Assembly (NCBI RefSeq): GCF_018688455.1
Contig: NZ_CP061319.1
Coordinates: 930,001-994,000, forward strand
Direction: 5' to 3'
DNA: 64,000 bases
DNA from: Polynucleobacter sp. AM-7D1
GTDB taxonomy: Bacteria > Pseudomonadota > Gammaproteobacteria > Burkholderiales > Burkholderiaceae
Below the pieces are notes generated by a model. The model was not told the origin of the DNA. It saw nothing but the letters and a program-made list of their open reading frames with translations, and made no database searches. Shown here piece by piece: positions 30,337 to 44,556 of the stretch. Each line of letters begins with the position of its first letter. The stretch's first letter is position 1. The position numbers and the translations under genes were made by a program.

Positions 30337-32073
30337 TTATGATTTAAGTGCAACCATGCCTGGATTATTCTTAACACCCTTAATAATTGGCTCATTGAGT
30401 TGGACTGCCTTCACTACTTTGACATCACGTAGGTGGCGCTCAATAACATCCCAAATTGCCTCGCCGCCAGCATTTTTAGCTTCTTCGCTTACAGGAGCCC
30501 AACCAGCTACTTTGTAGGTCTTGTTTGGCTCAATTGCCTTGCCATTTAGGCGCATATCGGTAATACGCTTGCCAGCAGTTTCAGCAGGATCAATCGTGTA
30601 TTGCAAGCCACCAACGCGAACCATGTCACCACCCTGTTGATAGTATGGATCAGGGTTAAAGAGGTTATCCGCAACGTCCTCAAGAATCGTTTTGATCATC
30701 TCACCATTCATATTCGTTACTGTTGTGTACGGATAGGTAATCGCTGTTTGATCAAGGAGATTTTCACGAGTAATTGCTTGTCCTGGCAATAAGCTAGTTC
30801 CCCAACGGAAACCTGGTGAGAATGCAATCTCCGCATTCTTCTGAGCCATGAGGCCATCCAAGATCAGTTGGTCAAAGCTACCATTAAAGTTTCCACGGCG
30901 ATACAAGAGACCTTCTGTTGTGGCCAATTTTTCGTTGAGCTTAGCTTCGTATGGCGCTCTAATTTTTTGAATCAGCTTATTCATTGCAGGATCAGCTGGG
31001 ATCATATTGGAGAAGATTGGGAAGAGTTTGTAACGGAAATCAACCGGTTTGCCGCCCTTCACATCAAAGTCCAATACGCCTAAGAATTTAGTATTCGAAC
31101 CAGCATTGGTAACTAAAGTTACGCCACCAGAATTCTTGACCTTGACTGGAATTGGAACACCATCGTGAGTATGACCACCCATAATCGCATCTAAACCAGT
31201 AACGCGGGATGCCATTTTTAAGTCGACGTCCATGCCATTATGAGAGAGCAATACAACCACTTTTGCTCCCTTAGCCTTCACTTCATTAATAGTCTTTTGC
31301 AGATTTTCTTCTTGGATACCAAATGTCCAATCAGGTGTGAAGTAACGTGGGTTAGCAATTGGGGTGTATGGGAAGGCTTGACCAATCACCGCTACCTGAA
31401 TGCCATTTTGAACCTTCATGACGTAAGGATTAAATACTGAATCACCGAAGTCTGCAGTCTTAATATTTTGGGCTACAAAGGACACTTTGCCTTTGAAGTC
31501 GCCGTTCACAATCTCCATAACGCGCTTCTCACCAAGAGTCATTTCCCAGTGTGGAGTCATGACGTCAACGCCTAAGAGGAGCGCCGCATCAACCATGTCC
31601 TGGCCGTTAGTCCATAGAGAAGTACCTGAGCCTTGCCAAGTATCGCCACCGTCTAACAAGAGTGCCCCTGGGCGACTTGCTTTGATTTGCTTGATCAGGG
31701 TTGCCATGTGTGCAAAGCCACCAACCTTGCCGTAGTTTTGAGCCGCCGCTACGTAATCAAGATATGTGAATGCATGTGCATCACGTGTTCCTGGCTTAAT
31801 GCCATTCGCCTTTAAAAAATATTCGCCGACCAAATGAGGAGTTTTGCCTTCTTGAGCGCCAATACCAAGATTCACATTAGGCTCGCGGAAATAGATTGGC
31901 AGAAGTTGTGCGTGACAGTCAGTGAAGTGCAGGAAATGAACATTACCAAACTTCGGCAAATCATAGAATTTTTGCGCAGTAGTTTGCGCGTTTGCAAAAT
32001 TAGATTGCAAACTCATGCCGCCAGCTGAGGCGATGGCTAATGCTTGCAAAAACTCACGACGATTTAAAGACAT
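30337..32073 (-). CDS. soxB: SoxB thiosulfohydrolase
   Basis: A periplasmic dimanganese enzyme that releases sulfate from SoxY-bound thiosulfonate. A Tat signal begins NRREFLQALAIASAGG. Metal ligands are seen in HFTDCHAQLLP (D52, H54), LLDGGDTWQGSG, LLSHNGMDV and GGHTHDG. The 578-residue length matches SoxB. It is last of the core sox genes and is separated from soxX by 45 bases holding a stable hairpin. Assignment is firm. Confidence 0.97.
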   Translation of the reverse strand: MSLNRREFLQALAIASAGGMSLQSNFANAQTTAQKFYDLPKFGNVHFLHFTDCHAQLLPIYFREPNVNLGIGAQEGKTPHLVGEYFLKANGIKPGTRDAHAFTYLDYVAAAQNYGKVGGFAHMATLIKQIKASRPGALLLDGGDTWQGSGTSLWTNGQDMVDAALLLGVDVMTPHWEMTLGEKRVMEIVNGDFKGKVSFVAQNIKTADFGDSVFNPYVMKVQNGIQVAVIGQAFPYTPIANPRYFTPDWTFGIQEENLQKTINEVKAKGAKVVVLLSHNGMDVDLKMASRVTGLDAIMGGHTHDGVPIPVKVKNSGGVTLVTNAGSNTKFLGVLDFDVKGGKPVDFRYKLFPIFSNMIPADPAMNKLIQKIRAPYEAKLNEKLATTEGLLYRRGNFNGSFDQLILDGLMAQKNAEIAFSPGFRWGTSLLPGQAITRENLLDQTAITYPYTTVTNMNGEMIKTILEDVADNLFNPDPYYQQGGDMVRVGGLQYTIDPAETAGKRITDMRLNGKAIEPNKTYKVAGWAPVSEEAKNAGGEAIWDVIERHLRDVKVVKAVQLNEPIIKGVKNNPGMVALKS

Positions 32074-32089
32074 AGTATTTTCCTAAAGA

Positions 32090-32111
32090 AAACAGGCCTT
32101 TCGGCCTGTTT
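32090..32111. promoter_or_regulatory. Stable hairpin between soxX and soxB
   Basis: AAACAGGCC (32090-32098) pairs perfectly with GGCCTGTTT (32103-32111). Read in the direction of transcription the loop is GAAA, a stable tetraloop, and the stem is followed by TTTTCTTT, then AGGA and the soxB ATG. It may stop part of the transcription, protect the upstream mRNA end or influence soxB translation. Confidence 0.6.
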
Positions 32112-32118
32112 ATTTTTA

Positions 32119-32724
32119 TTACTTGTTAACAGGCGACTCTGGATCTAGGAGCAATGCCATGACATCCTGCATTTGCTTCTCATTTAAGAGCTTGAAGTGA
32201 CCGAAGCGAGGCATATTGCTACACACGTTGTAGGCTTTCGAATTATTAATTCGGTTCCAGGTGTACTCCACTACCTCTTTGGAGTAACCACGTAACTTTC
32301 CGTAGTTCCAAAGTGATGGGCCAATATTTCCGTAAGAGACTTCTTTAATGTTAATTTGATGACAGTTATAGCAACCACCACCATTTGCTGATCCAGCTTT
32401 ATCAGACCAGGTAGCGCCTCGACCACTTTGCGCAATCTTCTCACCATTCTTCCAGTCGCCAATATATTTACCATCAGAAGGCTGCTTGATGGTTTTCATA
32501 TTTTCATTCTGGATTTTTTCGCGCATCTTGACATCACCGCCACCATCTAAATTTACAAGATTTGAGCAAAACTTTTGAGCCGCATCTTGATCTAAACGAT
32601 CTAATCCAGCCTGACCTTTAGCCTCAAAACTAGAGGACATCATCTTTTCAAATGGAGTAGCAGCACTGACAGTACCTGCTGCAGCTAGTAGCGTAAACGC
32701 CAAAATTGATAATTTGTTTTTCAT
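32119..32724 (-). CDS. soxX: SoxX cytochrome subunit of the SoxAX complex
   Basis: The small c-type cytochrome partner of SoxA, which joins thiosulfate to the SoxY cysteine. Signal peptide at residues 1-21 (ends VSAA). The haem motif CYNCH is at 118-122, followed by NIGPSLWNYGKLRG and the axial methionine region NMPRFGHF near the end. The 201-residue length is at the long end for SoxX, with an N-terminal helical extension. It follows soxA by 18 bases. Confidence 0.95.
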   Translation of the reverse strand: MKNKLSILAFTLLAAAGTVSAATPFEKMMSSSFEAKGQAGLDRLDQDAAQKFCSNLVNLDGGGDVKMREKIQNENMKTIKQPSDGKYIGDWKNGEKIAQSGRGATWSDKAGSANGGGCYNCHQINIKEVSYGNIGPSLWNYGKLRGYSKEVVEYTWNRINNSKAYNVCSNMPRFGHFKLLNEKQMQDVMALLLDPESPVNK

Positions 32725-32742
32725 ATTATTTATCTCCAGCGA

Positions 32743-33585
32743 TTAACGCTTCAGTCCTGGTGCATTCATGGTTCCGCCCTTAGCATTTACAGCCATATAC
32801 ATGGAGACTGCAATGGTATTTTCGGAAATATAGATTGGCTCTGGGAAACGTTGCTGACGGTAGCAGTCGTTCAGACGACGTTGCATGGTCCAGAAAGTAC
32901 CGCTAGAAACGCGGTATGCGGGCCAGTAACCCCAGCCTAAAGCAGCACCTTTTTGCTCGGTGATGTTAGGCAAATCTTGGAGACGAATTCGTTTGCCATT
33001 GGATGCGTGACATGATGCACAGGAGAAGTCCATTGGGCCACCCTGATAAAAGAATGACTGTTTGCCCATTGCGTATGCCTGCTTTTCCTTAGGATGCTTG
33101 GCCACAACATTAATGGGCATGCCCTTAGATTCTGCTACTACATAGGCAACTACAGCCTCTAGATCTTTACGTTTGCCTTTGCTAAATCCTGCCTTAACGA
33201 TCTCATTTGCATCATATCCTTGCAACTTAGACATACAGGTAACAAGGCGAGATTCTAGATCTTGAACTTGGTTGGTGTCTTTGAAGTATTTTGGCAATTG
33301 TGTATAGGCACCCTTTACAACCCCAGGCCCCATACCCAAATCGCATTTTTCAAGTGATACATTCTTTGGGCCCATTGGCTTTTTCCAAAGATCTTCACCG
33401 GCCGCTTCATACAAATCAGCAGGGTTACCATCGGCAATCATTGCACGATATTTTTCAATTTCGTCAGTTGGAGCACCCCCAGTAGGAGTAGCGGCTGTAG
33501 AAGCCTCATTTTTTGCAGGGCTTGAACAGCCTTGCAATACTGCAAATAAGCCAATAATGACGCCATATAAAATGCGTGTTTTCAT
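32743..33585 (-). CDS. soxA: SoxA, monohaem type, lipoprotein signal
   Basis: The catalytic cytochrome of SoxAX. One haem motif only, CASCH at 189-193, and the distal cysteine ligand that forms a persulfide in the family in NDCYRQQRF (C241). C81 and C117 sit where monohaem SoxA proteins hold a disulfide in place of a second haem. The N-terminus has a lipobox, LQGC with cysteine 20, followed by a linker rich in A, T and P, so this SoxA may be membrane-anchored. Length 280. Confidence 0.95.
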   Translation of the reverse strand: MKTRILYGVIIGLFAVLQGCSSPAKNEASTAATPTGGAPTDEIEKYRAMIADGNPADLYEAAGEDLWKKPMGPKNVSLEKCDLGMGPGVVKGAYTQLPKYFKDTNQVQDLESRLVTCMSKLQGYDANEIVKAGFSKGKRKDLEAVVAYVVAESKGMPINVVAKHPKEKQAYAMGKQSFFYQGGPMDFSCASCHASNGKRIRLQDLPNITEQKGAALGWGYWPAYRVSSGTFWTMQRRLNDCYRQQRFPEPIYISENTIAVSMYMAVNAKGGTMNAPGLKR

Positions 33586-33622
33586 GGTAACCCTTTTATA
33601 GTTTTAATTATGCGTATTGATA

Positions 33623-33931
33623 TTAAGAAACAGTTGCTTCATCAGTACGTTTGTCGCCTTTGTTGTCGTTCCAAGTCACAACAATTTTGTCGCCTTTAGC
33701 GCCTTTGTATTTAAAGTTCAAAAATGGATCCTTAGAAACTGCAGGACCAAATTCGCCTGTAAATACTTTCTTACCATTGGCGGTAACATTAATTGTGCTG
33801 ATAAACCACTGAGGAATAGTTTTACCGGACGCGTCTTTACGCTGACCAGACTCCATATCGTGTTTCATCAAAATTTTTACATCTACAGTACCGCCGTTTT
33901 CAGCAGCTCTTACGCGCATTGGATCAGCCAT
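33623..33931 (-). CDS. soxZ: SoxZ sulfur-carrier subunit
   Basis: The beta-sandwich partner of SoxY, 102 residues, with the family start ADPMRVRAAENGGTVDVKIL and the internal TINVTANGKKVFTGEFGP. It has no signal peptide and is carried out by the Tat signal of SoxY in known systems. It follows soxY by 54 bases and precedes soxA by 37 bases. Assignment is secure. Confidence 0.96.
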   Translation of the reverse strand: MADPMRVRAAENGGTVDVKILMKHDMESGQRKDASGKTIPQWFISTINVTANGKKVFTGEFGPAVSKDPFLNFKYKGAKGDKIVVTWNDNKGDKRTDEATVS

Positions 33932-33985
33932 TTTGGTTCCTCTTTTATTCTATGTGTGAATTGTGTCTATGAATTTGCTTCGGGA

Positions 33986-34438
33986 TTAACCGCCGCAACC
34001 ACCAAGCGTTACTTTGACTTCTTTAACAGTCATAAGCCACTTACCATCAGCCTTGGCTAAGCCATAAACATTGGATGTTTGACCCATTTTGATACGGGTT
34101 GTAACAAACGCATCAGTGCCTGCAGGAATAAAGAATTGGGCAGCTAAAGCGCTAGGGTTCTTTTCAACCAAGATCGCCAACTGCTCAGCCTTAAGGGTAG
34201 TAGTAATTCCAACAGGAACTACCGCGCCATTTTCAGCAATATCAGGAGCGTTCAGAGTAACGGCAGAAGATTTGTCCGGGCTACCAGCACCTAAAATTTT
34301 AAAAACGTCATCCAAGCTCTTGCCTTCAAAAGCGGCTTTATTCCACTCCTGTGCTTGGGCAGTACTAATAAGGCCTGAAGAAGCCATCAGACCAAATACT
34401 GCTGAATACTTCATTAAACTGCGTCGCTGCTGATTCAT
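33986..34438 (-). CDS. soxY: SoxY sulfur-carrier subunit
   Basis: Carries sulfur intermediates on the cysteine of a flexible C-terminal arm. The protein ends in VKVTLGGCGG, the diagnostic swinging arm. I start it at the ATG at 34438 (MNQQRRSLMKYSAVFG), which has a strong ribosome site (AAAGGAG) and a Tat-like twin arginine; the frame opens upstream at 34471 without such support. Length 150. It lies between soxD and soxZ. Confidence 0.96.
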   Translation of the reverse strand: MNQQRRSLMKYSAVFGLMASSGLISTAQAQEWNKAAFEGKSLDDVFKILGAGSPDKSSAVTLNAPDIAENGAVVPVGITTTLKAEQLAILVEKNPSALAAQFFIPAGTDAFVTTRIKMGQTSNVYGLAKADGKWLMTVKEVKVTLGGCGG

Positions 34439-34523
34439 AAAAACTCCTTTATTAATCTTAACTTCTATCAATTTATTGCTTATTTTGCATTAAAACATTC
34501 AGGTTACTACCTAATTGGCCGTT

Positions 34524-35603
34524 TTATTTGCCACCAGAGAGCATCCAAGTCACTAAAGTCTTGCGATCTTCATCAGAAAGCTGAGCTTGCGGTGGCATTG
34601 GAATAGAACCCCAAACTCCCGCTCCACCCATCTTGACCTTGGTCATTAGCTTCTCAAGCGCACCACTCTGACCCTCATACTTCTTAGCAACATCAGCAAT
34701 TGATGGGCCAACTAGCTTAGCGTTAGGTGCATGGCAAGCAGAGCAATTTTCGCTCTGGAATAAAGCAGCCGGGCCTTTTTTGGCTGATGAATGCGTATCC
34801 TTAGCATGGGCTAAGCCTTCACCAGAAGCGCCAGGCAATTTAGCTAACGGTGGTTTAGTTGAATCTGCACCACGATATGGGCCGTACATACGGTTTTGCT
34901 CTGCAATGTTCTCGTGTGCATTTCGAGCGAAATCAGGCAAGGTTGAGCCGATTTGAACGAATTGAACACAATTTTTCATACATGAGCTGCCATTGACATC
35001 AGGCTTACCGCTAACGCTCCAGAAACCATGCTTAGTCGTCATGCCATTGCGGTTCGGCATTTTGACTTCAGCAATATTCTTATCGCTCAGCACATAATCA
35101 TCCGGAACAATCTCGCCTAGACTCAAAATAAATGCAACAAGGGCGTAGGTATCGTCAGGCGTTAGAGATCTTGGGGCATTCCACGGCATTGCGCGGTAGA
35201 TATAGTCCCACAATGTAGATACTGTTGGTACCTTCATTAAGGTTGTTCTTTGGGGTTGCTTCATATCAATTAATGAAGCTACGCGACCTGTCTTTACATC
35301 ATCCTTGGTGGTGCCACCAGCAATAGGTGTAAAGATTTCGTTTGACTCACCGAAGGTGCCGTGACAACTTGCACACTTGGCTTCCCAAATTTCCTGACCT
35401 TTTTGAACTGAGCCAGATCCCTTTGGGAGACCCTTGAAATCTGGACGAACATCAATATCCCAAGCTGCTACTTCAGCCATCGTTGCATGACGACCAATAC
35501 CTGGATATTTAGCAGAATCCGATTGTGCAACCGCACTGTGAGCACCTAAAACTAAAAGCGCCGCAAAACCAATACGAGCAGTTAATTTATCCAACTTGTA
35601 CAT
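34524..35603 (-). CDS. soxD: SoxD dihaem cytochrome subunit of sulfur dehydrogenase
   Basis: Partner of SoxC; passes electrons from the sulfane dehydrogenase. Two haem motifs are seen, CASCHGTFG near residue 78 and CSACHAPNA near 292. A signal peptide follows the start (cleavage near SAVAQ). The ATG at 35603 (MYKLDKL) has a GAGGT ribosome site eight bases upstream and overlaps the soxC end by 17 bases; an ATG five codons earlier lacks such a site. Length 359, in keeping with SoxD. Confidence 0.94.
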   Translation of the reverse strand: MYKLDKLTARIGFAALLVLGAHSAVAQSDSAKYPGIGRHATMAEVAAWDIDVRPDFKGLPKGSGSVQKGQEIWEAKCASCHGTFGESNEIFTPIAGGTTKDDVKTGRVASLIDMKQPQRTTLMKVPTVSTLWDYIYRAMPWNAPRSLTPDDTYALVAFILSLGEIVPDDYVLSDKNIAEVKMPNRNGMTTKHGFWSVSGKPDVNGSSCMKNCVQFVQIGSTLPDFARNAHENIAEQNRMYGPYRGADSTKPPLAKLPGASGEGLAHAKDTHSSAKKGPAALFQSENCSACHAPNAKLVGPSIADVAKKYEGQSGALEKLMTKVKMGGAGVWGSIPMPPQAQLSDEDRKTLVTWMLSGGK

Positions 35604-36987
35604 TGCTGACCTCGCCATTTGAATCTAATTTCCAGGATTGAATTGCATTGTTGTGATAGATCGATCTTGTACCGCGAACATCACGCAATTTTTTAATGGT
35701 TGGCTGAATATAGCCTGTATCGTCCATCGCTCTCGACTGCAAAATAGCAGGTGAGCCATCCCACACCCAGTCGATATTAAAGCGGGTAATAGATTTATCT
35801 AGGATTGGTGTTTCTAGACGAGCAGTGCGCCAGTTATTTCCACCATCGAACGAAACATCAACACGCCGGATCTTGCCGCGACCAGACCAAGCCATACCGC
35901 TGACGTTGTAGAAACCTTTGTCAAGTAACTGCTGACCACCAGATGGAGTTGTGATTACAGATTTACATTCTTGAATCGATGCGTACTGACGATGTGTACC
36001 GTCTGGCATGAGTTCAATGTAGTGAACCGCTTCATCTTTTGCATTCCATGGCATGTCACCCACTTCAAGGCGGCGCAACCATTTCACCCAACTAACACCC
36101 TGAACACCTGGCACTACCAAGCGTAATGGGAAACCATTTTCAGGGCGCAACATCTCACCGTTCATACCCCAAGCTACGATGGTGTCATTCAAGCAACTCT
36201 CAAGATTAATGGTGCGAGTCATACCTGAACCATCACCACCTTCAGCAAGCATGAACTTGCCTTTTTTGAGGTCAGCGCCACATTCTTCAAGCAATACCTT
36301 CAAAGGAACGCCAGTGAACTCACAGCAAGAAAGCATGCCGTGCGTGTACTGAACAGTAGGTACAGCAACGTTACCCCACTCAAGACCAGTATTAGCGCCG
36401 CACTCAATAAAGTGAGTACGAGAAACTGATGGCAATCTCATCAAATCATTCATTGTGAAAACGCGTGGGTTTTTCACTAAGCCATTAACCATCAGGCGAT
36501 GAGTCTCAGGATTGAGGTTGTACCAACCTTGATGGTGACGCTCAAAATGCAATCCGTTAGGAGTGATTGTTCCAAACAAACCTTGAAGCGGAGTAAAGGC
36601 AACTGAGGCTGCTGATACTCGAGTTAAGCCTGGAGACTCTCGACGAATCAAGTTTGACTCGTAAATAGATGGCATACCGTAAGGCATAGTTGCCACATTC
36701 TTACCGAGGGTAGTTTGCCATTCTTGCTTCTCCAGAATCGCAGGATCGCCCTCACCTGCAGCCATCGCTAGCGGAGCTGTTAGCCCTGCCGCCGCGCCAC
36801 CTAAAGCAGACATGAAACCCTTGCGCAAGAAGCCGCGACGGTTTTCATCCAAGCCATTGGCGTTGATGTCAGCAATCAGTTCCTGAGAAATAAAATGCTC
36901 AGGAGCCTTAACCAGACGAGCACGGTTAGTCGGCTTTTCGATAGCGCTGATATCTTGCGCACTGATCTCTATTTGTTTTTTGGTCAT
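35587..36987 (-). CDS. soxC: SoxC molybdenum sulfane dehydrogenase subunit
   Basis: A periplasmic sulfite-oxidase-fold enzyme that oxidises the outer sulfane sulfur on SoxY with release of six electrons. The Tat motif is NRRGFLRKG, arginines at 50-51, ending near LAMAA. The molybdenum-binding cysteine is C196 in THFIECGANTG. The C-terminal dimerisation domain is present. Length 466. It is the first sox structural gene after arsR (37 bases apart) and is translationally overlapped with soxD. Having SoxCD means the cell can avoid sulfur globules. Confidence 0.96.
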   Translation of the reverse strand: MTKKQIEISAQDISAIEKPTNRARLVKAPEHFISQELIADINANGLDENRRGFLRKGFMSALGGAAAGLTAPLAMAAGEGDPAILEKQEWQTTLGKNVATMPYGMPSIYESNLIRRESPGLTRVSAASVAFTPLQGLFGTITPNGLHFERHHQGWYNLNPETHRLMVNGLVKNPRVFTMNDLMRLPSVSRTHFIECGANTGLEWGNVAVPTVQYTHGMLSCCEFTGVPLKVLLEECGADLKKGKFMLAEGGDGSGMTRTINLESCLNDTIVAWGMNGEMLRPENGFPLRLVVPGVQGVSWVKWLRRLEVGDMPWNAKDEAVHYIELMPDGTHRQYASIQECKSVITTPSGGQQLLDKGFYNVSGMAWSGRGKIRRVDVSFDGGNNWRTARLETPILDKSITRFNIDWVWDGSPAILQSRAMDDTGYIQPTIKKLRDVRGTRSIYHNNAIQSWKLDSNGEVSNVQVG

Positions 36988-37024: not shown

Positions 37025-37366
37025 TTAATGCAAACTCTCGGCAATTTTTGCGCAGACTGTCTGACACATTTCAACGGTTGCGTTATCAGCGATAGAGTAA
37101 AAAACGGTTGTACCTTCTTTACGCCTAAGTAAAATTCCGGCTTTATGTAGGGCTGCAAGATGACGAGAGACATTGGCCTGACTGGAGCCGCACAACTCAA
37201 CAACCTCAGAAACAGACTTTTCGCCACTGCAAACTGCATACATGATGCGCAGGCGTGATGGCTCCGAAAGAACGCTGAAATATTCAGCAACATTAGCAAA
37301 TACCTTTTCCATGGCTTGTGGAGAAAGGTCTTTGGTGGCTTTTTTAACTTTTACTTTGATATTCAC
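37025..37366 (-). CDS. ArsR-family repressor, likely sulfur-responsive
   Basis: A 113-residue winged-helix regulator (helix-turn-helix in SVSEVVELCGSSQANVSRHL, wing in RRKEGTTVFYSIAD). It has four cysteines, C46, C59, C101 and C105. Sulfide or persulfide sensors of this family (BigR, SqrR, SoxR-type) use cysteine pairs, but the first pair here does not align simply with SqrR. The start is a GTG at 37366. It heads the sox cluster and faces an inverted repeat that I predict to be its operator. Role as the sox repressor is inferred from context. Confidence 0.85.
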   Translation of the reverse strand: MNIKVKVKKATKDLSPQAMEKVFANVAEYFSVLSEPSRLRIMYAVCSGEKSVSEVVELCGSSQANVSRHLAALHKAGILLRRKEGTTVFYSIADNATVEMCQTVCAKIAESLH

Positions 37367-37374
37367 AGGCTAAG

Positions 37375-37405
37375 ATTATATATGCGTATACATGCATATT
37401 GGACA
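37375..37405. promoter_or_regulatory. Predicted ArsR operator and sox/mod promoter region
   Basis: An inverted repeat ATATGC-8-GCATAT lies at 37380-37399. On the minus strand a perfect TATAAT (37380-37375) touches its left edge, so a bound repressor would block arsR-sox transcription. On the plus strand TGGACA (37400-37405) and TATATA (37423-37428) could form the modB promoter. A matching repeat is found at 43310-43329. Confidence 0.65.
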
Positions 37406-37467
37406 CCGAAGCGGCAAACACTTATATAGTGGGATACCCTAGCCTCAAAGGCAATACAATCAAAAAA

Positions 37468-38118
37468 ATGGATATTGATGCAATTCTGCTATCCCTAAAG
37501 CTTGCTTTTTGGACTATGGCTCTAATTCTTCCCTTTGGGATCTGGGTTGCCCATAGGCTGCTTAAGCTCAATAAAAGTCGGCCATGGATTGAGGCTGCCC
37601 TAGCACTTCCATTAGTCCTGCCGCCCACTGTTTTAGGTTATTACTTTCTGGTTTCTTTTGGTAATACCAGTATTTTTGGCTCCCCAATAGTATTTTCATT
37701 CACAGGCATTCTGATTTCCTCATTAATTGTCAATATCCCCTTCGCCATTCAGCCTATCCAGAGAGCATTTGAGGCTATTAATCCTGAAATCAGAGAAGCT
37801 GCTCAGGTGAGCGGTCTGAGTGATTGGCAAATCTTTCGGTTGATCGAGTTGCCGCTATCTTGGCGAGGTATTACCGGTGCCGCCGCCCTTACCTTTGCCC
37901 ACACCCTTGGTGAATTCGGCGTTGTCCTCATGGTTGGCGGAGCCATACCCGGGGAGACCAAAACGGCCTCCATTGCTATTTATGACAAGGTTCAGAGCTT
38001 TGATACTGCTGGTGCTGGCGCTATCGCGCTTGTGCTCCTTGGTACATCTCTTGTTTGTATAGCGCTTTCATATGGGGTATTTGGGCAGAATCGCGGTCGC
38101 CGCGGGAGCTTGAGCTAA
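37468..38118 (+). CDS. modB: Molybdate-type ABC transporter permease
   Basis: The membrane channel of a molybdate or related oxyanion importer. The ATG at 37468 (MDIDAILLSLKL) gives 216 residues with about five helices and the EAA loop EAAQVSGLSDWQIFRLIELP; a TTG-initiated frame from 37399 would start within the operator. The block LPLVLPPTVLGYYFL is typical of ModB. It diverges from arsR-sox, and SoxC needs molybdenum, which supports molybdate. No modA is present here. Confidence 0.88.
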   Translation: MDIDAILLSLKLAFWTMALILPFGIWVAHRLLKLNKSRPWIEAALALPLVLPPTVLGYYFLVSFGNTSIFGSPIVFSFTGILISSLIVNIPFAIQPIQRAFEAINPEIREAAQVSGLSDWQIFRLIELPLSWRGITGAAALTFAHTLGEFGVVLMVGGAIPGETKTASIAIYDKVQSFDTAGAGAIALVLLGTSLVCIALSYGVFGQNRGRRGSLS

Positions 38119-39227
38119 TGCTAAAAATCAAGATTAGCCAAACCTACCCGAATCCACTGCAAATCAATCTTGAATGTGCGCCAGGTGAGTTGCATGCTTT
38201 AGTTGGCCCCTCCGGGAGCGGCAAAACTTCAGTTCTCAGAACCATTGCCGGCCTAAACAAGCCTGCTACCGGAGTTATTCAGTGTGAAGGGATGATCTGG
38301 TTTGAAGGTAACGACCTGAATCCTAAAGCGCTTCACCTAGCGCCCGCACAACGGTCATGTGGATTCTTATTTCAACAATATGCCCTATTTCCACATTTGA
38401 ATGCCTTAGACAACGTATCGATTCCATTACAAAACTCTGGCCTTTCCACAAGTAAACGCAAGACTATCAGTATGGATTTATTAGATCGAATGGGCATTTC
38501 TAATTTGGCCGAGCGAATGCCGCATCAACTTTCTGGCGGTCAACAACAACGGGTAGCACTCGCCAGAGCTCTAGCACGCCAACCAAAAGTATTGCTGCTG
38601 GATGAGCCCTTCTCAGCTATCGATGCCCCAACCCGCCAGGGTTTGTATAAAACTCTGGCAGATCTTAGAAAAGATCTGAATATCCCAATTCTATTGGTCA
38701 CTCATGATTTACGTGAAGCAGACTTACTTGCAGACCAGATTACCGTTATAGACAAAGGCATTAGCCTGCAAACTGCAGCGCCGCAGGTCTTATTTCAAAG
38801 GCCAAGAAATTCTCGCGTTGCTGAATTAGTTGGTATTAGCAATATGTTTCATGGTGTGTTCGATTCGGGTAACTTAAGTTGGGATGGTTGCAATCAACTC
38901 TTTAGGGTTGCCGACAAAGGCAAAATTCCACCTAAAGTGCGTGTGGCTTGGGTTATCCCCCAGAGCGGCCTCAGCGTTCACGTCACCCCAACCATGACTA
39001 GCGTACCGACAGTAGTGGAGAAGATGAGCAGCCTTGGTCAGATCGCCGTAATTCAGTTGCGTATTGAAGGTAGCGAAAATACCGTTGAATGGGAGGCATC
39101 TTCTGCAGAAGTGAGAAGGCTATCTATGGTGGTCGGCAGTCAAATGCATCTCGAGCTTGATGGCAATCAGATCCACATCATGCCATTGCGACCCATCAAT
39201 GATCCGCGACGCTTTATTGATCATTAG
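38118..39227 (+). CDS. modC: Molybdate-type ABC transporter ATP-binding protein
   Basis: Energises the ModB permease. The P-loop is GPSGSGKTS, the signature LSGGQQQRVALARALA, and Walker B LLLDEPFSAID. A C-terminal domain from about residue 235 resembles the TOBE/Mop region of ModC. The ATG at 38118 overlaps the modB stop by one base (TAATG); a longer frame from 38055 lies inside modB and is rejected. Length 369. The likely substrate is molybdate, though sulfate transport proteins are similar. Confidence 0.87.
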   Translation: MLKIKISQTYPNPLQINLECAPGELHALVGPSGSGKTSVLRTIAGLNKPATGVIQCEGMIWFEGNDLNPKALHLAPAQRSCGFLFQQYALFPHLNALDNVSIPLQNSGLSTSKRKTISMDLLDRMGISNLAERMPHQLSGGQQQRVALARALARQPKVLLLDEPFSAIDAPTRQGLYKTLADLRKDLNIPILLVTHDLREADLLADQITVIDKGISLQTAAPQVLFQRPRNSRVAELVGISNMFHGVFDSGNLSWDGCNQLFRVADKGKIPPKVRVAWVIPQSGLSVHVTPTMTSVPTVVEKMSSLGQIAVIQLRIEGSENTVEWEASSAEVRRLSMVVGSQMHLELDGNQIHIMPLRPINDPRRFIDH

Positions 39228-39245
39228 ATCTCCGCTTTATTAAAG

Positions 39246-39282
39246 ACAAAAACGCTTGCTAGACTTTGATCTAACAAGCGTT
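39246..39282 (-). terminator. Terminator of the DUF2892 operon
   Basis: AACGCTTG (39251-39258) pairs with CAAGCGTT (39275-39282), with four more pairs inside one mismatch and a six-base loop. On the minus strand it is followed by TTTTTG. It would end the leftward operon of 39298-42532; in the other direction it may also mark the modC end. Confidence 0.7.
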
Positions 39283-39297
39283 CTAGTTAAAACAGTA

Positions 39298-39513
39298 TTA
39301 CTTGCTGGAACTGCTATCGCTACATGAATCTTTAGCACCAGTATTAATACCCAATAATGGATAGGCTGGGCAAAATTTAAAGGCTCCAGTGGCTAGTGGA
39401 ATAACACCAATCCAAGCCCAGGCCCCAGTTGTTCCTGTGACAGCCAAACCAATCAATACTAGGCCAGCAACAATACGTAAGATACGGTCGATACCACCAA
39501 CATTGCATTTCAT
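39298..39513 (-). CDS. DUF2892 (YgaP-like) small membrane protein
   Basis: A 71-residue inner-membrane protein with two helices, starting MKCNVGGIDRILRIVAGLVL and containing FKFCPAYPLLGI, the pattern of the membrane domain of rhodanese YgaP. Cysteines at position 3 and near 48 are conserved in this family. Alone it has no rhodanese domain, but a rhodanese gene lies directly upstream (46 bases), so together they may resemble a split YgaP-like pair. Role unknown. Confidence 0.88.
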   Translation of the reverse strand: MKCNVGGIDRILRIVAGLVLIGLAVTGTTGAWAWIGVIPLATGAFKFCPAYPLLGINTGAKDSCSDSSSSK

Positions 39514-39559
39514 ATTACATCCTTGTTTAAATTTATTACTGAAAAAAGTGAACTACTAT

Positions 39560-40537
39560 TTAATTAAGTGGAACACCAACCAGTGGGCGACCTTCAAGAG
39601 TCCAGAGGTATAAAGAGCCGTCATAAAGCTTGGTTGATTTATTGCCGACTAATTCAGACATAACAAACCAACCGCCTGCAGCTAAGTGACCGCTATTGCA
39701 ATAGCTAATTGCCGGCGTCTTTGGGTTGATTCCGTTTGAAGTGAATAATGCGTTGTAAGTATTCTTATCCCAGAAATACAGAGCCCCTTTTGTAGGCTTT
39801 GCTAATAACTCAGGAGCCAATTCCTTTGCACCCGCAATGTGACCGTAAGCACCTACATAGTCACGCTTATTTAAACCAAAAAACTGAACAGGTTGACGTG
39901 CGTCGATCAAAGTAGTTTTACCTGTTTTAGAAGCTAATGCAACCTGCTCAGAGTTAGCAATCAACTCTTTACGCTCAGCTTTACCAACCCATGTTCCATT
40001 GGTTTTAATTGATGGGGCAACAGAAAAATCGCGTCCTTCAGAAAGCCAGCCTGCCATGCCACCATCTAATACGGCGATATTGTCCTCACCATAAACCTTA
40101 AATTGCCAATACGCGCGCAAAGCTTCATCAATATCAGAAATATCTTGGGCAATAGGAACTAAAACAATTGGCTTGTCAGAATTGATGCCCACCGACTGAA
40201 TAATTTTTTCAAAGTCTGCTTTTTCAGGAATCAGATACTTGATCTTTTTCCCGTCAATCATGCGATCAACCCTTACCTTTTTAAAGTCAAGCAATGTGGA
40301 CTCTGGAATATGGCCGCCTACCTCAACTAAAAACTTCTTCCCTGTTTTTTTATCAATTTCAAATTCAGGGGCACGGGTATAGCTGGCTACATCGCCGCGA
40401 ACCTCTAAGATCTGAACCTCTGATTGATTGGCAGCAAGCCATTCAGCGCTAACTAATGGGCCCGGCAAACTTACCGCGTGCACTAATCCAATAAAACTTG
40501 TAATCGCAACGACTAGTCCTATTTGAATCTTTTTCAT
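39560..40537 (-). CDS. Exported two-domain rhodanese sulfurtransferase
   Basis: A periplasmic thiosulfate or mercaptopyruvate sulfurtransferase of 325 residues. A signal peptide (cleavage near VHAVS) precedes two rhodanese domains, about 25-160 and 195-320. The second has the active cysteine in AISYCNSGHLAAGGWF; the first lacks one at the matching loop, as usual in tandem rhodaneses. It lies between the unknown gene (13 bases upstream) and DUF2892 in the second sulfur operon, fitting periplasmic sulfane transfer. Confidence 0.9.
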   Translation of the reverse strand: MKKIQIGLVVAITSFIGLVHAVSLPGPLVSAEWLAANQSEVQILEVRGDVASYTRAPEFEIDKKTGKKFLVEVGGHIPESTLLDFKKVRVDRMIDGKKIKYLIPEKADFEKIIQSVGINSDKPIVLVPIAQDISDIDEALRAYWQFKVYGEDNIAVLDGGMAGWLSEGRDFSVAPSIKTNGTWVGKAERKELIANSEQVALASKTGKTTLIDARQPVQFFGLNKRDYVGAYGHIAGAKELAPELLAKPTKGALYFWDKNTYNALFTSNGINPKTPAISYCNSGHLAAGGWFVMSELVGNKSTKLYDGSLYLWTLEGRPLVGVPLN

Positions 40538-40550
40538 TTGAACTCCTTGA

Positions 40551-41174
40551 TTAATTTGCAGGTAATAAATATTGCGAAAGTCGATCTAATAAATCAATCT
40601 TGCTTTCAGTTAATACGTGGTGCTCCCTTGAATTGAGAGCCGACTTCAAGTCACCACGGTCAATTTCTAGTTGAGTAATTTTGTGATCCCTTTCAACTAT
40701 TAATACTTTCATATCGGTAAAAAATAGCTTAGTAAGTGCACTAACCCAACGGGACACCGGACCCAAGCGACCCTTGGTTGCCATATCAAAGTTACGCAAT
40801 TCATCCAGCACCAGATCTGCGGAGATTAACTTCTCCCCAGTAACCCACTGGTTTGTAGTGAATAAACGTACTGGCAAGCCTTGCTGATTTAATGCGATGC
40901 CAATGAGGTGATGGAATTCCACTCCATTACGCTTGAATAAATGGAAGTGACCGTGCTCACCATCTTGCATCTCATCAGCTGTATGTGCATGGTAGTAAAA
41001 CTCATATCCACTATCGGGATCTGAGAGATCATTTTTGGGATAGTGATTCCACTCAATAAACTCTCGCGCGCCGCACAACGCTGCTTGGCTTAAAGTCAAA
41101 CCTTTTTTTGCGTAACGCGTTTGGATGCTAGCTATTTCTTGAGCAGCCAAACAGAGAGTAGATTGAATGAGCAC
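40551..41174 (-). CDS. Conserved protein of unknown function (DUF6969-like)
   Basis: A 207-residue soluble protein without signal peptide or membrane segment. I think it resembles DUF6969, but this is from memory of the pattern SGYEFYYHAHTADEMQDGEH and GHFHLFKR near residues 70-95, which is rich in histidine and acidic residues and could bind a metal. Further on is VEFHHLIGIALNQQGLPVRL. It follows the NPCGP-repeat gene by nine bases and precedes the exported rhodanese, so it belongs to the sulfur operon. No known catalytic signature is seen. Confidence 0.72.
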   Translation of the reverse strand: MLIQSTLCLAAQEIASIQTRYAKKGLTLSQAALCGAREFIEWNHYPKNDLSDPDSGYEFYYHAHTADEMQDGEHGHFHLFKRNGVEFHHLIGIALNQQGLPVRLFTTNQWVTGEKLISADLVLDELRNFDMATKGRLGPVSRWVSALTKLFFTDMKVLIVERDHKITQLEIDRGDLKSALNSREHHVLTESKIDLLDRLSQYLLPAN

Positions 41175-41183
41175 GGTAGTAAA

Positions 41184-41417
41184 TTAATCAGCAGATTTAC
41201 GTTTTTTAGGGCCACAAGGATTTGCTGGACCACATGGGTTGGCTGCTTTTTTCTTAGCCGGGCCACATGGATTGCTTGATTCCTTCTTGGGTCCGCATGG
41301 GTTCTTTTGTTCGGCACCAGCTGGAGTTGCTGGAGCATCTGCAGCATTAGCCATAGGGGCCGCTGCCAATCCAGCTAAAGCTAAAGCAAGCGCAGCTACT
41401 GTTGATTTTTTAGACAT
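41184..41417 (-). CDS. Small exported protein with four NPCGP repeats
   Basis: A 77-residue protein with a signal peptide (MSKKSTVAALALALAGLAAA, cleavage near ANAAD). The mature part of about 50 residues has four NPCGP units spaced by short lysine-rich or alanine-rich linkers, with one cysteine each and no other cysteines. The frame opens earlier at 41516 but that part overlaps the YeeE gene and is unlike a signal. Its only recognisable feature is the repeat; a role in binding metal or sulfur is a guess from the four cysteines and the neighbours. Confidence 0.82.
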   Translation of the reverse strand: MSKKSTVAALALALAGLAAAPMANAADAPATPAGAEQKNPCGPKKESSNPCGPAKKKAANPCGPANPCGPKKRKSAD

Positions 41418-41436
41418 TATTTTTCCTTTTGAAGTA

Positions 41437-42006
41437 TTAGATTTCTTGAGAACTGACAGGGCCCGTGGATTTCTTCTCCATCCATGCGCCCAAGATAAAT
41501 ACACCAATTGCAGCAAGCACCATGATGAGGTCTATAGAAATGCTTGAGACGTTGAAAAGCTCCGGTAATGAATCTGCATTTGCTATCTCACCCAAAGTCG
41601 TAAGAGATTCAATGCTTGGATAGATGCCTGCAAATAGGATTGTTCCCAGTAGCAAACCAATCAGAAAGATTCCGGCATCAATGCGACCTGACATCAGACC
41701 AACTACTGAAGTGCCAGGACAATAGCCACCAATAGCGAAACCGGCACCGACAAATGCACCACCCAAAGCTGCCGCACCTAAAAATGATGGGGGAACGAAA
41801 AGGCTGCCACTCTCCACGAAACCAGTCTTTTCCAGAATGAAAAGTCCGACCGCTGCAAAAACGATTGCAGTAAACATGACTTTAAATACCGACCAATCTG
41901 TTAAGCGAAATTGGCCTGTTAATTTGTTGGGATTGCCAAAACCAGCCCGCTCGAGCACAAATCCAAATGCTCCACCTATCAATAAACCCGAAAGAATTGT
42001 TCCCAT
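41437..42006 (-). CDS. YeeE/YedE-type transporter half (DUF6691-like)
   Basis: A 189-residue membrane protein with about five helices. The hallmark GFAIGGYCPGTSVVGLMSGR is near residues 93-112, with the conserved cysteine. The N-terminus LSGLLIGGAFGFVLERAGFG is typical of the family. It pairs with the gene next upstream, one base apart. It would take part in import of a sulfur compound; this pair is distinct from the transporters next to soxB. Confidence 0.88.
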   Translation of the reverse strand: MGTILSGLLIGGAFGFVLERAGFGNPNKLTGQFRLTDWSVFKVMFTAIVFAAVGLFILEKTGFVESGSLFVPPSFLGAAALGGAFVGAGFAIGGYCPGTSVVGLMSGRIDAGIFLIGLLLGTILFAGIYPSIESLTTLGEIANADSLPELFNVSSISIDLIMVLAAIGVFILGAWMEKKSTGPVSSQEI

Positions 42007-42007
42007 C

Positions 42008-42532
42008 TTATTTCTCCTCTTTCATTAGGCGGCTAGCAAGTAATCCAACCGCGAAGAATGTACCTAAAAATGTAAATCCAGCCAAACTCAGAACAGCCGC
42101 GCCAGATAAACCGAGACCACTAGTACAGCCTGCAGCAATGCGAGCGCCAAAGCCAGCCAAGATTCCGCCAAATAAGGCAGTTAGAGGTCGCTTAGAGCCT
42201 CCTAAGAATTTCTGACCATCTAACTTGATTGCAATTCTTCCTGCAAAAAATGCCGAGATGAGAGCGCCTAGAGCAACCCCAATTACCTGCCAAGTGATCC
42301 ATGCATCCAAGGGCTTGCCCTCTTCAACCATTCCTCCGAGATATTCATTGGCATTAGTGGCTGCTGGCAGAAGGTACATTCCAAACCATGCTGTTAGGCG
42401 CGTTGTAAATCCTGTAGCACCCAAACCATGTCCGGTAAAAGCAAATGTGGATAACAGAACAATCCCGAGCAAGATGCCCGCAAGCAAGGGATTCCAGTAT
42501 GGAGCTGGTTGACCCAGTTTTTCTTTATTCAT
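42008..42532 (-). CDS. YeeE/YedE-type transporter half
   Basis: A 174-residue membrane protein, partner of the gene at 41437-42006. Its signature is RIAAGCTSGLGLSGAAVL near residue 129. The ribosome site GAGGTGATC before the ATG is unusually strong. It is the first gene of a six-gene leftward operon (two transporter halves, NPCGP protein, unknown protein, rhodanese, DUF2892). An AT-rich imperfect palindrome lies just upstream. Confidence 0.88.
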   Translation of the reverse strand: MNKEKLGQPAPYWNPLLAGILLGIVLLSTFAFTGHGLGATGFTTRLTAWFGMYLLPAATNANEYLGGMVEEGKPLDAWITWQVIGVALGALISAFFAGRIAIKLDGQKFLGGSKRPLTALFGGILAGFGARIAAGCTSGLGLSGAAVLSLAGFTFLGTFFAVGLLASRLMKEEK

Positions 42533-42550
42533 TTTTGATCACCTCAATTA

Positions 42551-42587
42551 AGGTATTAATAATATATTAATTTATATAATATTACCT
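42551..42587. promoter_or_regulatory. AT-rich imperfect palindrome upstream of the YeeE operon
   Basis: AGGTATTAAT at the left (42551) mirrors ATTACCT at the right (to 42587), with an AT-only centre holding several possible -10 boxes. It lies 20 bases ahead of the first gene. It differs from the ATGC-8-GCAT operator, so any regulator may differ. Confidence 0.35.
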
Positions 42588-42636
42588 AGGATCAACACAG
42601 TCAAGATGAAATAAGCGAATCATTTTGATGTAGATC

Positions 42637-42660
42637 AAAAAAAGGGGGGCAAAGCCCCCC
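42637..42660 (-). terminator. Terminator of the single rhodanese gene
   Basis: GGGGGGC (42644-42650) and GCCCCCC (42654-42660) pair around a three-base loop; on the minus strand seven T residues follow. It ends the leftward gene at 42685-43269 and insulates the YeeE operon. Confidence 0.9.
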
Positions 42661-42684
42661 GTAAAAGAACGAACAAGAAAATAT

Positions 42685-43269
42685 TTAAAATTCGCCCTTA
42701 ACCGTAGTTAAACCTAAGGCATCCCAATCCAGCATGCCGCCGCGATAGTAGTAAATCTTGCTGGCTGGAAAACCATCACGTGTCATTGCTGCCATAGCCA
42801 TAGGGCTTTGTGGGCAAACAGGACCATTGCAAAAGGCATAGACCTTTTTAGCCTTAGAGCAATCCCATTTAGTGGAGCCGGCAGATGGCTTCTTGCAACC
42901 GAGTTCATCCATGCGCATCGCAACCTCGGTATACGGAATGCCAACAGAACCAGGAATTGTGCCCTTTACACGATCATCAACAACACGCATATCAACAACA
43001 ATTGCGTCTTTATCATTTAATGCATTCAACACGTCAATCTCATCTACAGGAACAACACCCTTAATTGGGATTAATGGCTGTAACCAGCCTTTATTCTTGG
43101 CGCAAGAGGTCATCACTCGGGTGATTTCAACGGGCCCCTTGGATGTATTAACAACAAACTTGGTTGATTTATCAATAATTTGGAGTAATTCTGGATTGGA
43201 AGATGGTGCAGACTGCGCCAAAACAAAGCCCGAAACAAGGGTTAGGCAGCAAACTAATAATTTCTTCAT
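42685..43269 (-). CDS. Exported single-domain rhodanese
   Basis: A periplasmic sulfurtransferase of 194 residues. The start at 43269 gives a signal peptide (MKKLLVCCLTLVSGFVLAQ); an earlier frame opening at 43335 runs through the operator and is rejected. The rhodanese active loop is FCNGPVCPQSPM, with two cysteines. An N-terminal segment of about 70 residues precedes the rhodanese fold. A predicted operator identical in form to that of the sox cluster lies 41-60 bases upstream, so it may be under the same regulator. It has its own terminator. Confidence 0.88.
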   Translation of the reverse strand: MKKLLVCCLTLVSGFVLAQSAPSSNPELLQIIDKSTKFVVNTSKGPVEITRVMTSCAKNKGWLQPLIPIKGVVPVDEIDVLNALNDKDAIVVDMRVVDDRVKGTIPGSVGIPYTEVAMRMDELGCKKPSAGSTKWDCSKAKKVYAFCNGPVCPQSPMAMAAMTRDGFPASKIYYYRGGMLDWDALGLTTVKGEF

Positions 43270-43309
43270 AAAGTCTCTTTTCAGTAATGGGATGCAGAAA
43301 TGGCGTTTT

Positions 43310-43329
43310 AAATGCATATATACGCATTT
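43310..43329. promoter_or_regulatory. Second predicted ArsR operator
   Basis: AAATGC-8-GCATTT, an inverted repeat of the same 6-8-6 form as the one at 37380-37399. Read on the minus strand the spacer GTATATAT differs from the first site's GTATACAT by one base, while the arm changes are matched on both sides. A further ATGCAT lies at 43329-43334. Confidence 0.65.
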
Positions 43330-43470
43330 ATGCATAGATTTGTAGTTTCGCCCTAAGTCACGGGTAAATTAATACAGAGAAACCCCTATTGATGGCGAAT
43401 TTAGCAGTATTATCATGCCAGGAAGCTAGCGGTAATTGCTACCCACGATCCCTTTAATAATGGAGTTTCA

Positions 43471-43839: not shown

Positions 43840-44556
43840 TTACGAGCTGGCTTGTGAGAAGGCTTTTAGCTTCTCAAGACTAGGTATTTGAATGCTAAGG
43901 CGGGTGACATTTGAAATAACCCCTTGATCGGCCATAGATGCAAGCGCCCTACTGATGGTCTCGAATTTCACATCCATCATTAAACCCATATCTTCCCTCT
44001 TAAATAATGGGGCAACTGCCATATCACCAGAAACCTTAGCGGTCCTGAGAAAGAAACGCGCAAGACGTACTTCAATCCTACCCGTATTAATTTCAGAAAA
44101 CCAAGACTCCGATTGGGCAAGCGCTTCGCCCCACTTCTTAACAATCTGACGATGCAATCGAGGTGACTCTTCGCCTAAAGAAGAGATGATTTTTTTAGGG
44201 ATACGGCAGAGATGGATATTGGATAGTGCGGCTGCTGAATGGGCATAACTGTCACCTAAGAGCGCCTCCATACCAAATAGATCTCCAGGAACTACTAAGC
44301 GGACAATTCTTCCAGATCCATCTGAATTAATATGAAGTAACTTGATATACCCATCCCTCAAGGTGTACAGGAAATCAGCAGCTTCGCCCTGGTTGTAAAT
44401 TCCCGAATGCGACTCAAATCGAAGGTCATCAATTGGCTCATGTATTTTGGAAAAATCATCTTCATTTAATTCAGCAAAGAGTGCAGAGCTTCTGATAGAG
44501 CAAGCATTACAGTCGCTGTTGCCTTGCCAAGCACTTTTGATCTCGATGGTTTTCAT
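43840..44556 (-). CDS. Crp/FNR-family regulator with an incomplete FNR cysteine set
   Basis: A 238-residue transcription regulator: cyclic-nucleotide-type domain at about 28-145 and a winged helix with MMDVKFETISRALASMADQG near 205. C16 and C19 (DCNACSIR) and C117 (NIHLCRIP) match three of the four cluster cysteines of E. coli FNR (C20, C23, C122), but the position matching C29 is A25. So it is FNR-like but may not bind a normal 4Fe-4S cluster. The start overlaps the methyltransferase stop (ATGA). Confidence 0.9.
   Translation of the reverse strand: MKTIEIKSAWQGNSDCNACSIRSSALFAELNEDDFSKIHEPIDDLRFESHSGIYNQGEAADFLYTLRDGYIKLLHINSDGSGRIVRLVVPGDLFGMEALLGDSYAHSAAALSNIHLCRIPKKIISSLGEESPRLHRQIVKKWGEALAQSESWFSEINTGRIEVRLARFFLRTAKVSGDMAVAPLFKREDMGLMMDVKFETISRALASMADQGVISNVTRLSIQIPSLEKLKAFSQASS

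Follow-up and report, generated by a model that had tools for sequence, protein, structure and literature searches.

A Conserved Palindrome as the Very Likely Operator of a sox-Linked ArsR Repressor in Polynucleobacter and Related Genera

Organization of the Locus

A stretch of 64,000 nucleotides from the chromosome of Polynucleobacter sp. AM-7D1 (contig NZ_CP061319.1, positions 930,001 to 994,000, hereafter the window) was analyzed for the control of its sulfur-oxidation genes. The stretch carries an arsR gene for a small ArsR/SmtB-family repressor between a soxCDYZAXB cluster and a modBC gene pair, and two copies of a palindrome with six-base arms and an eight-base centre, one in the arsR/modB gap and one upstream of a gene for an exported rhodanese. 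As judged from sequence, this palindrome is very likely the operator of the sox-linked ArsR protein (sox ArsR). The genome is of the Polynucleobacter type, and the close relatives of the regulator in a collection of named genomes are Polynucleobacter strains and freshwater metagenome-assembled genomes. The main features of the locus are as follows.

30337..36987, minus strand: soxCDYZAXB, downstream of arsR and in the same direction; soxC, soxY, soxA, soxX and soxB score above the NCBIfam cut-offs, soxD and soxZ are named by sequence and place only
37025..37366, minus strand: arsR, ArsR/SmtB-family repressor of 113 amino acids with Cys46, Cys59, Cys101 and Cys105
37380..37399, undirected: putative operator 1, ATATGC-GTATACAT-GCATAT in the arsR/modB gap, full reading ATATGCGTATACATGCATAT
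37468..38118, plus strand: modB, molybdate permease (TIGR02141, 196.7 bits, cut-off 182.6)
38118..39227, plus strand: modC, ABC ATPase, named by the sequence and place of its open reading frame (ORF)
42685..43269, minus strand: exported single-domain rhodanese (PF00581, 34.3 bits, cut-off 22.2), behind operator 2
43310..43329, minus strand: putative operator 2, AAATGC-GTATATAT-GCATTT upstream of the rhodanese gene, reading AAATGCGTATATATGCATTT

Both palindromes had been proposed in a first-pass annotation of the window as operators of an ArsR regulon, and both are present at the positions given there. They share the 16-mer ATGCGTATAYATGCAT, whose only exact matches in the genome (1,934,975 bases, single contig) are these two places. 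The pattern AWATGC-N8-GCATWT occurs twice in the genome without mismatch and the reversed pattern not at all, and the looser WWATGC-N8-GCATWW has four exact places, the two operators and two positions inside ORFs whose starts resemble rpoN and mobA (named by eye). The first-pass annotation had also argued from the 4-8-4 geometry, and the spacing does equal that of the SqrR consensus, but the bare form ATGC-N8-GCAT is found three times in the window against 2.8 expected and is therefore not above chance. The significance of the operator comes first and foremost from its conservation, together with the 6-bp arms and the shared centre, since the 4-8-4 geometry alone is insufficient. The proposal that the outer arm bases change together comes down to a single symmetric change from one site to the other, T/A to A/T at arm position 2, with no repeated covariation.

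Conservation of the Palindrome Upstream of arsR

The genus set comprised 151 genomes, 95 of them with an arsR match, from which 60 neighbourhoods of approximately 20 kb were picked by hand and combined with the window to give 61 loci. The arsR gene lies directly ahead of soxC and in the same direction in all 60 relatives. For each locus the best 20-mer upstream of arsR was scored by the number of arm bases, out of 12, that match ATATGC-N8-GCATAT. The score was 12 in 38 loci, 11 in 19, 10 in three, and 9 in one, so that at least 10 of the 12 arm bases are present ahead of the sox-linked arsR in 60 out of 61 loci. Of 3050 random 170-nt windows taken from these loci, 2.2% reached a score of at least 10, as did 23 out of 628 150-base stretches that precede other neighbouring genes (one of these stretches reached 11). 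The arm columns are identical in 53–61 of the 61 loci, against 30–46 in five of the eight centre columns, and 30 different centres occur. Among 80 loci from the named collection, which overlap the genus set, the score was 12 in 51, 11 in 19, 10 in seven, and 9 in three (77 out of 80 with at least 10). The dyad is also plain in eight of 13 further arsR loci (G098, G003, G140, G097, G025, G019, G084, and G128).

The palindrome extends beyond the genus. In other genera the regulator shows 47–58% protein identity and the flanks differ, and 16 out of 20 loci of the family have arsR immediately before soxC in the same orientation. TATATGC-N8-GCATATA is present upstream in 16 out of 16 of these sox-linked arsR genes, 14–49 bases before the aligned stretch (which begins at query residue 14–19), and is absent from all four arsR relatives without sox linkage. 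A scan covering 432 kb in 29 loci of other genera (the named genera are Pandoraea and Cupriavidus and some strains are counted twice) identified exactly one place per locus with a score of at least 11, always upstream of arsR. In Pandoraea and other genera the arms are constant and the centre need not alternate between purines and pyrimidines (e.g., GTCATTGG and CCAATGAC). A lack of conservation upstream of arsR and the rhodanese gene in relatives had been named beforehand as an outcome that would refute the proposal; the comparison was run and conservation was found at both places.

The Rhodanese Site

Operator 2 is separated from the ATG of the rhodanese gene by 40 bases. The gene is present in 33 of the 151 genus genomes, and in these the site was scored against AAATGC-N8-GCATTT. 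A score of at least 10 out of 12 was found in 24 out of 27 genomes that carry arsR and in one out of six that lack it. No rhodanese site was found in G088, an arsR-less single-contig genome with sox genes and a rhodanese that is 87% identical. The matrix that found the rhodanese sites was built from the arsR sites only, the rhodanese sites taking no part in it. Applied to the 61 neighbourhoods (whole genomes were searched by patterns), it matched two gaps, that of arsR/modB by construction and that ahead of the rhodanese gene, and two places within ORFs. A further half-site adjoins operator 2, giving three half-sites in 8-base steps, and is found next to the rhodanese dyad in 17 of the 33 genomes compared.

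43330..43336, minus strand: third half-site, TATGCAT

Joint Presence and Loss of Regulator and Operator

Sixteen genomes were picked by hand and inspected for loss, and ten of them contain soxC without this arsR. ATGC-N8-GCAT is absent within approximately 1.5 kb upstream in all ten of these soxC loci. In one genome (G001, locus L180) a BigR/SqrR-type ArsR gene sits between modB and soxC in place of the usual regulator and the dyad is absent; the soxC match at this locus contains two in-frame stops. Genes that resemble sulfide:quinone reductase and persulfide dioxygenase (by eye) occupy this position in three genomes (G088, G026, and G033), and in three others (G027, G057, and G029; loci L184, L185, and L186) modBC directly faces soxC with no arsR between them. 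The modB-soxC gap of the latter three shares a different palindrome around GTTGAAAAGATATTCAAC, which may serve a further regulator as its operator. Overall, regulator and operator go together across the loci: the dyad is found with the regulator and is missing without it, with the exceptions noted below. A class-wide search matched arsR in 105 out of 369 genomes, mostly generic ArsR proteins; eight of these loci were inspected and contained no sox genes in the flanks retrieved, and their best dyad score reached 10 at one locus and did not exceed 9 at the other seven.

Several observations weigh against the operator reading. The genus loci are related and not independent, and three centre columns are kept in 52–58 of the 61 loci, so that the centre is not free within the genus. 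The score is only 9 in one genus locus (L073), in three of the 80 loci from the named collection, and in one of the 13 further arsR loci (G055, L286), and no dyad was found beside the arsR fragments of two others (G103 and G054). The arsR match of G103 (L153) is partial and a full soxC match was not found, the sox locus apparently being in decay. Two metagenome-assembled genomes (G066 and G045; L150 and L151) carry the arms ATATGC/GCATAT upstream of arsR at a spacing of 16 and not 8, an arrangement that looks like two overlapping sites. At the rhodanese gene the site is missed in three genomes with arsR (G004, with a spacer deletion and a score of 9; G082, with a score of 9; and G019, where the start is cut), and one draft genome in which arsR was not found (G006) scores 11. 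The presence of at least one AWATGC-N8-GCATWT per genome separates the genomes poorly (84 out of 95 with arsR vs. 29 out of 56 without), the additional places lying mostly inside ORFs (12 of 14 extra loci inspected). Finally, two genomes (G110, L351; G109, L353) contain the perfect dyad ATATGCGTATATACGCATAT away from arsR, behind a YeeE-like transporter pair; at one of these loci it adjoins other alternating tracts.

Family Placement of the sox ArsR

The protein matches the ArsR/SmtB winged-helix models PF01022 (50.8 bits, cut-off 22) and NF033788 (79 bits, cut-off 55), and its fold is predicted with a pLDDT of 91.9 from 43 sequences (58 from the single sequence). The best structural matches of the model include the metal sensors CzrA and SmtB. 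Three cysteines, C46, C101, and C105, are invariant in 61 out of 61 genus loci and in 43 out of 43 sequences.

The assignment of the protein to the BigR/SqrR group, made in the first-pass annotation, is not supported. The place of the SqrR helix-2 cysteine is occupied by tyrosine, and C46, C101, and C105 align with Ala, Val, and Tyr (the helix-5 cysteine of SqrR falls just past the aligned stretch and was positioned by eye, with the BigR-type protein of this genome as a guide). The score against the curated BigR model NF040642 is 47.1 bits with a cut-off of 155, and a separate BigR-type ArsR is encoded at 335 kb in the same genome (103.7 bits, also below the cut-off). The spacing of the operator is equal to that of the SqrR consensus ATTC-N8-GAAT (PMC9774250), but its arms are ATGC/GCAT and differ from the ATTC/GAAT arms of SqrR (Rhodobacter capsulatus), BigR and YgaV by one base pair per half-site; one YgaV site also departs from the consensus according to the same source. 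The gene of the sox ArsR is linked to sulfur-oxidation genes, as in that group, and the protein would work like SoxR and SqrR, but by its cysteines and its operator arms it is not a member of their group.

A known analogue is SoxR of Hyphomicrobium denitrificans and Pseudaminobacter, likewise a lone repressor of the ArsR family with linkage to a sox cluster (PMC10451225). According to this source, Hyphomicrobium SoxR represses sox, releases the DNA on polysulfide, and also influences genes beyond sox; the sox ArsR would, by comparison with this protein (see also PMC12423496), be released by sulfane sulfur. SoxR carries the SqrR/BigR cysteine pair (Cys50/Cys116), whereas the thiols of the sox ArsR are displaced by approximately one helical turn on both helices and include a CxxxC in helix 5. 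The survey of sox-linked soxR genes in Proteobacteria in PMC10451225 lists Burkholderiaceae with Sox systems and may have counted the protein studied here. TTHA1953 of Thermus is a thiol-type repressor that controls sox, but it belongs to the CsoR family and its operator is TACNNTACNNNNGTANNGTA (PMC10318464). A sox cluster without soxCD is noted in the Cupriavidus metallidurans genome description, which in its available portion does not mention a sox-linked ArsR (PMC2864759). A search of the open-access literature found neither this operator nor the control of sox in Polynucleobacter, Pandoraea or Cupriavidus described.

Promoter-Like Elements and the Link to modBC

The operator in the arsR/modB gap is flanked by promoter-like elements on both sides.

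37375..37380, minus strand: −10-like TATAAT of arsR, sharing one base with operator 1; promoter-like only
37400..37430, plus strand: modB-side pair TGGACA/TATAGT with a 19-base spacer, abutting operator 1; promoter-like candidate

The perfect TATAAT reported to touch the repeat on the sox side was thus found, 8 bases from the GTG start of arsR, and given this gap the arsR transcript may be leaderless. The best TATAAT match near the site (best of 17 offsets in 61 loci) agrees at six of six bases in five loci, five in 44, four in 11, and three in one, against approximately 5% of random places that match at five or more. In 45 out of 61 loci the best-scoring modB-side pair, chosen from many offsets without a control, begins 0 or 2 bases away from the site. 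A sigma-70 promoter scan returned no pair above its threshold. Downstream of the modB −35-like box lies TATAGTGGGATACCC (37425–37439), and ATACCC occurs within 70 bases of the site in 48 out of 61 loci. Homologues make the ATG at 37468 a likelier start of modB than the TTG at 37399.

Control by the sox ArsR had been proposed for sox, modBC, and the rhodanese gene together. The arrangement of the genes points to sox and the shared operator to the rhodanese gene, and the arsR-sox operon and the rhodanese gene are likely to form the regulon as read from the sequence. The inclusion of modBC is possible by adjacency at best, because in the two genomes where modBC lies away from arsR (G004 and G098) no score above 8 out of 12 occurs in the 260 bases that precede the mapped start of modB. 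The modA gene is located at 647.6 kb, apart from modBC, and the exact 16-mer of the operators is not found there.

Proposed Mechanism and Alternative Explanations

The explanation favoured here with good confidence is that the palindrome is the operator of the sox ArsR, that it governs a small regulon, and, plausibly, that sulfane sulfur releases the repressor. A winged-helix dimer would read both six-base arms, with the eight-base centre serving mostly as a spacer. Bound at 37380–37399, the dimer would cover the arsR promoter region and hence arsR-soxCDYZAXB, and would touch the −35-like element of modBC; since operator 1 overlaps the TATAAT-like box of arsR and abuts the −35-like box of modB, a bound dimer should block both. 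A dimer at 43310–43329 would block the exported rhodanese gene. Oxidizable sulfur, arriving as sulfane sulfur, might form a bridge between C46, located where helix 2 ends, and the helix-5 cysteines C101/C105, upon which the dimer would leave the DNA and sox, the rhodanese gene and, by proximity, molybdate uptake for SoxC would be switched on. SoxC is a molybdenum enzyme, and control of modBC would feed molybdate to it. A response to sulfane sulfur is plausible by analogy with Hyphomicrobium SoxR, against which stands that the cysteine positions differ from those of proven sulfane-sulfur sensors.

The same cysteines bear on an alternative in which the operator is assigned correctly but the protein responds, via C46, C101, and C105, to a thiophilic metal or metalloid, or else to a redox signal. 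Three invariant thiols would suit the count of a metal site, none of them stands at a SqrR position, and CzrA and SmtB are among the best structural matches. The gene company argues otherwise: in other genera it consists of sox, and in the genus of sox together with rhodaneses and genes for YeeE-like transporters. Likewise, no metal-resistance gene was recognized among the profile-searched neighbours (the remaining window was not searched for one). The sulfur-oxidation context sets the protein apart from the metal sensors CzrA, SmtB, and CadC, and metal or redox sensing is considered unlikely, though the likeliest of the alternatives. It is considerably less probable that the palindromes are bound by a different regulator and are close to the sox arsR by coincidence. 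The most plausible candidate, the BigR/SqrR-type ArsR at 335 kb, is nearer to the canonical sulfur-sensor type and SqrR sites share the 4-8-4 spacing, but the dyad goes with the sox arsR in other genera as well and is missing at the sox locus of G001, where a BigR-type regulator stands in for the sox ArsR. Furthermore, the pattern listing of the own genome contains no WWATGC-N8-GCATWW place near the BigR-type operon, which has an AT-only dyad like that at 42557–42584. The least probable explanation, to which hardly any weight is given, holds that the palindromes are alternating purine–pyrimidine tracts kept for DNA structure, or chance microsatellites. Operator 1 does alternate throughout and operator 2 across its inner 16 bases only, such tracts are also seen in G110 and G109, and conservation within the genus extends to some centre columns. 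Against this, the arms are fixed around centres that need not alternate in Pandoraea and other genera, and within the genus the arms are far more constant than most of the centre.

With the palindrome read as the operator of the sox ArsR, the locus offers a precise operator, a regulator, and a small regulon together with natural negative controls in the form of genomes that lack the regulator or have exchanged it. We tentatively suggest, at slightly less than even confidence, that the protein represents a separate Burkholderiaceae branch of sulfur-sensing ArsR regulators for the complete Sox system, with its own operator code and a dithiol moved by one turn on both helices and joined by a third thiol. 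In Polynucleobacter this branch would stand beside a BigR-type regulator with an AT-only operator, with swaps of regulator and operator between lineages at the sox locus and molybdate uptake tied to SoxC. The moved cysteines raise the question of whether the ArsR fold acquired sulfane-sulfur sensing more than once.

Neighbouring Genes and Further Palindromes

The region 2–6 kb past modBC encodes a YgaP-type membrane protein, a larger rhodanese, a DUF6969 protein, a split YeeE-like transporter pair, the exported rhodanese, and a HiPIP. In Hyphomicrobium the YeeE-like protein SoxT1B carries the signal inward (PMC11582611), and by analogy the split pair could play a similar role here. An AT-only dyad lies ahead of the transporter pair (42557–42584), with both halves present in 21 out of 24 loci, and resembles the dyad ahead of the BigR-type operon of the genome at 334.5 kb; it likely marks a second sulfur regulon. 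The transporter operon is also preceded by an FNR/CRP-like palindrome, TTTTGATGTAGATCAAAA (42623–42640), found as TTGAT-N4-RTCAA in six out of 24 loci, and a gene for a CRP/FNR-type regulator is located at 43840–44556. Between the rhodanese and HiPIP genes, the element CAATAGGGGTTTCTCTGTATTAA (43369–43391, minus strand) keeps its form in 19 out of 21 loci and is possibly a promoter.

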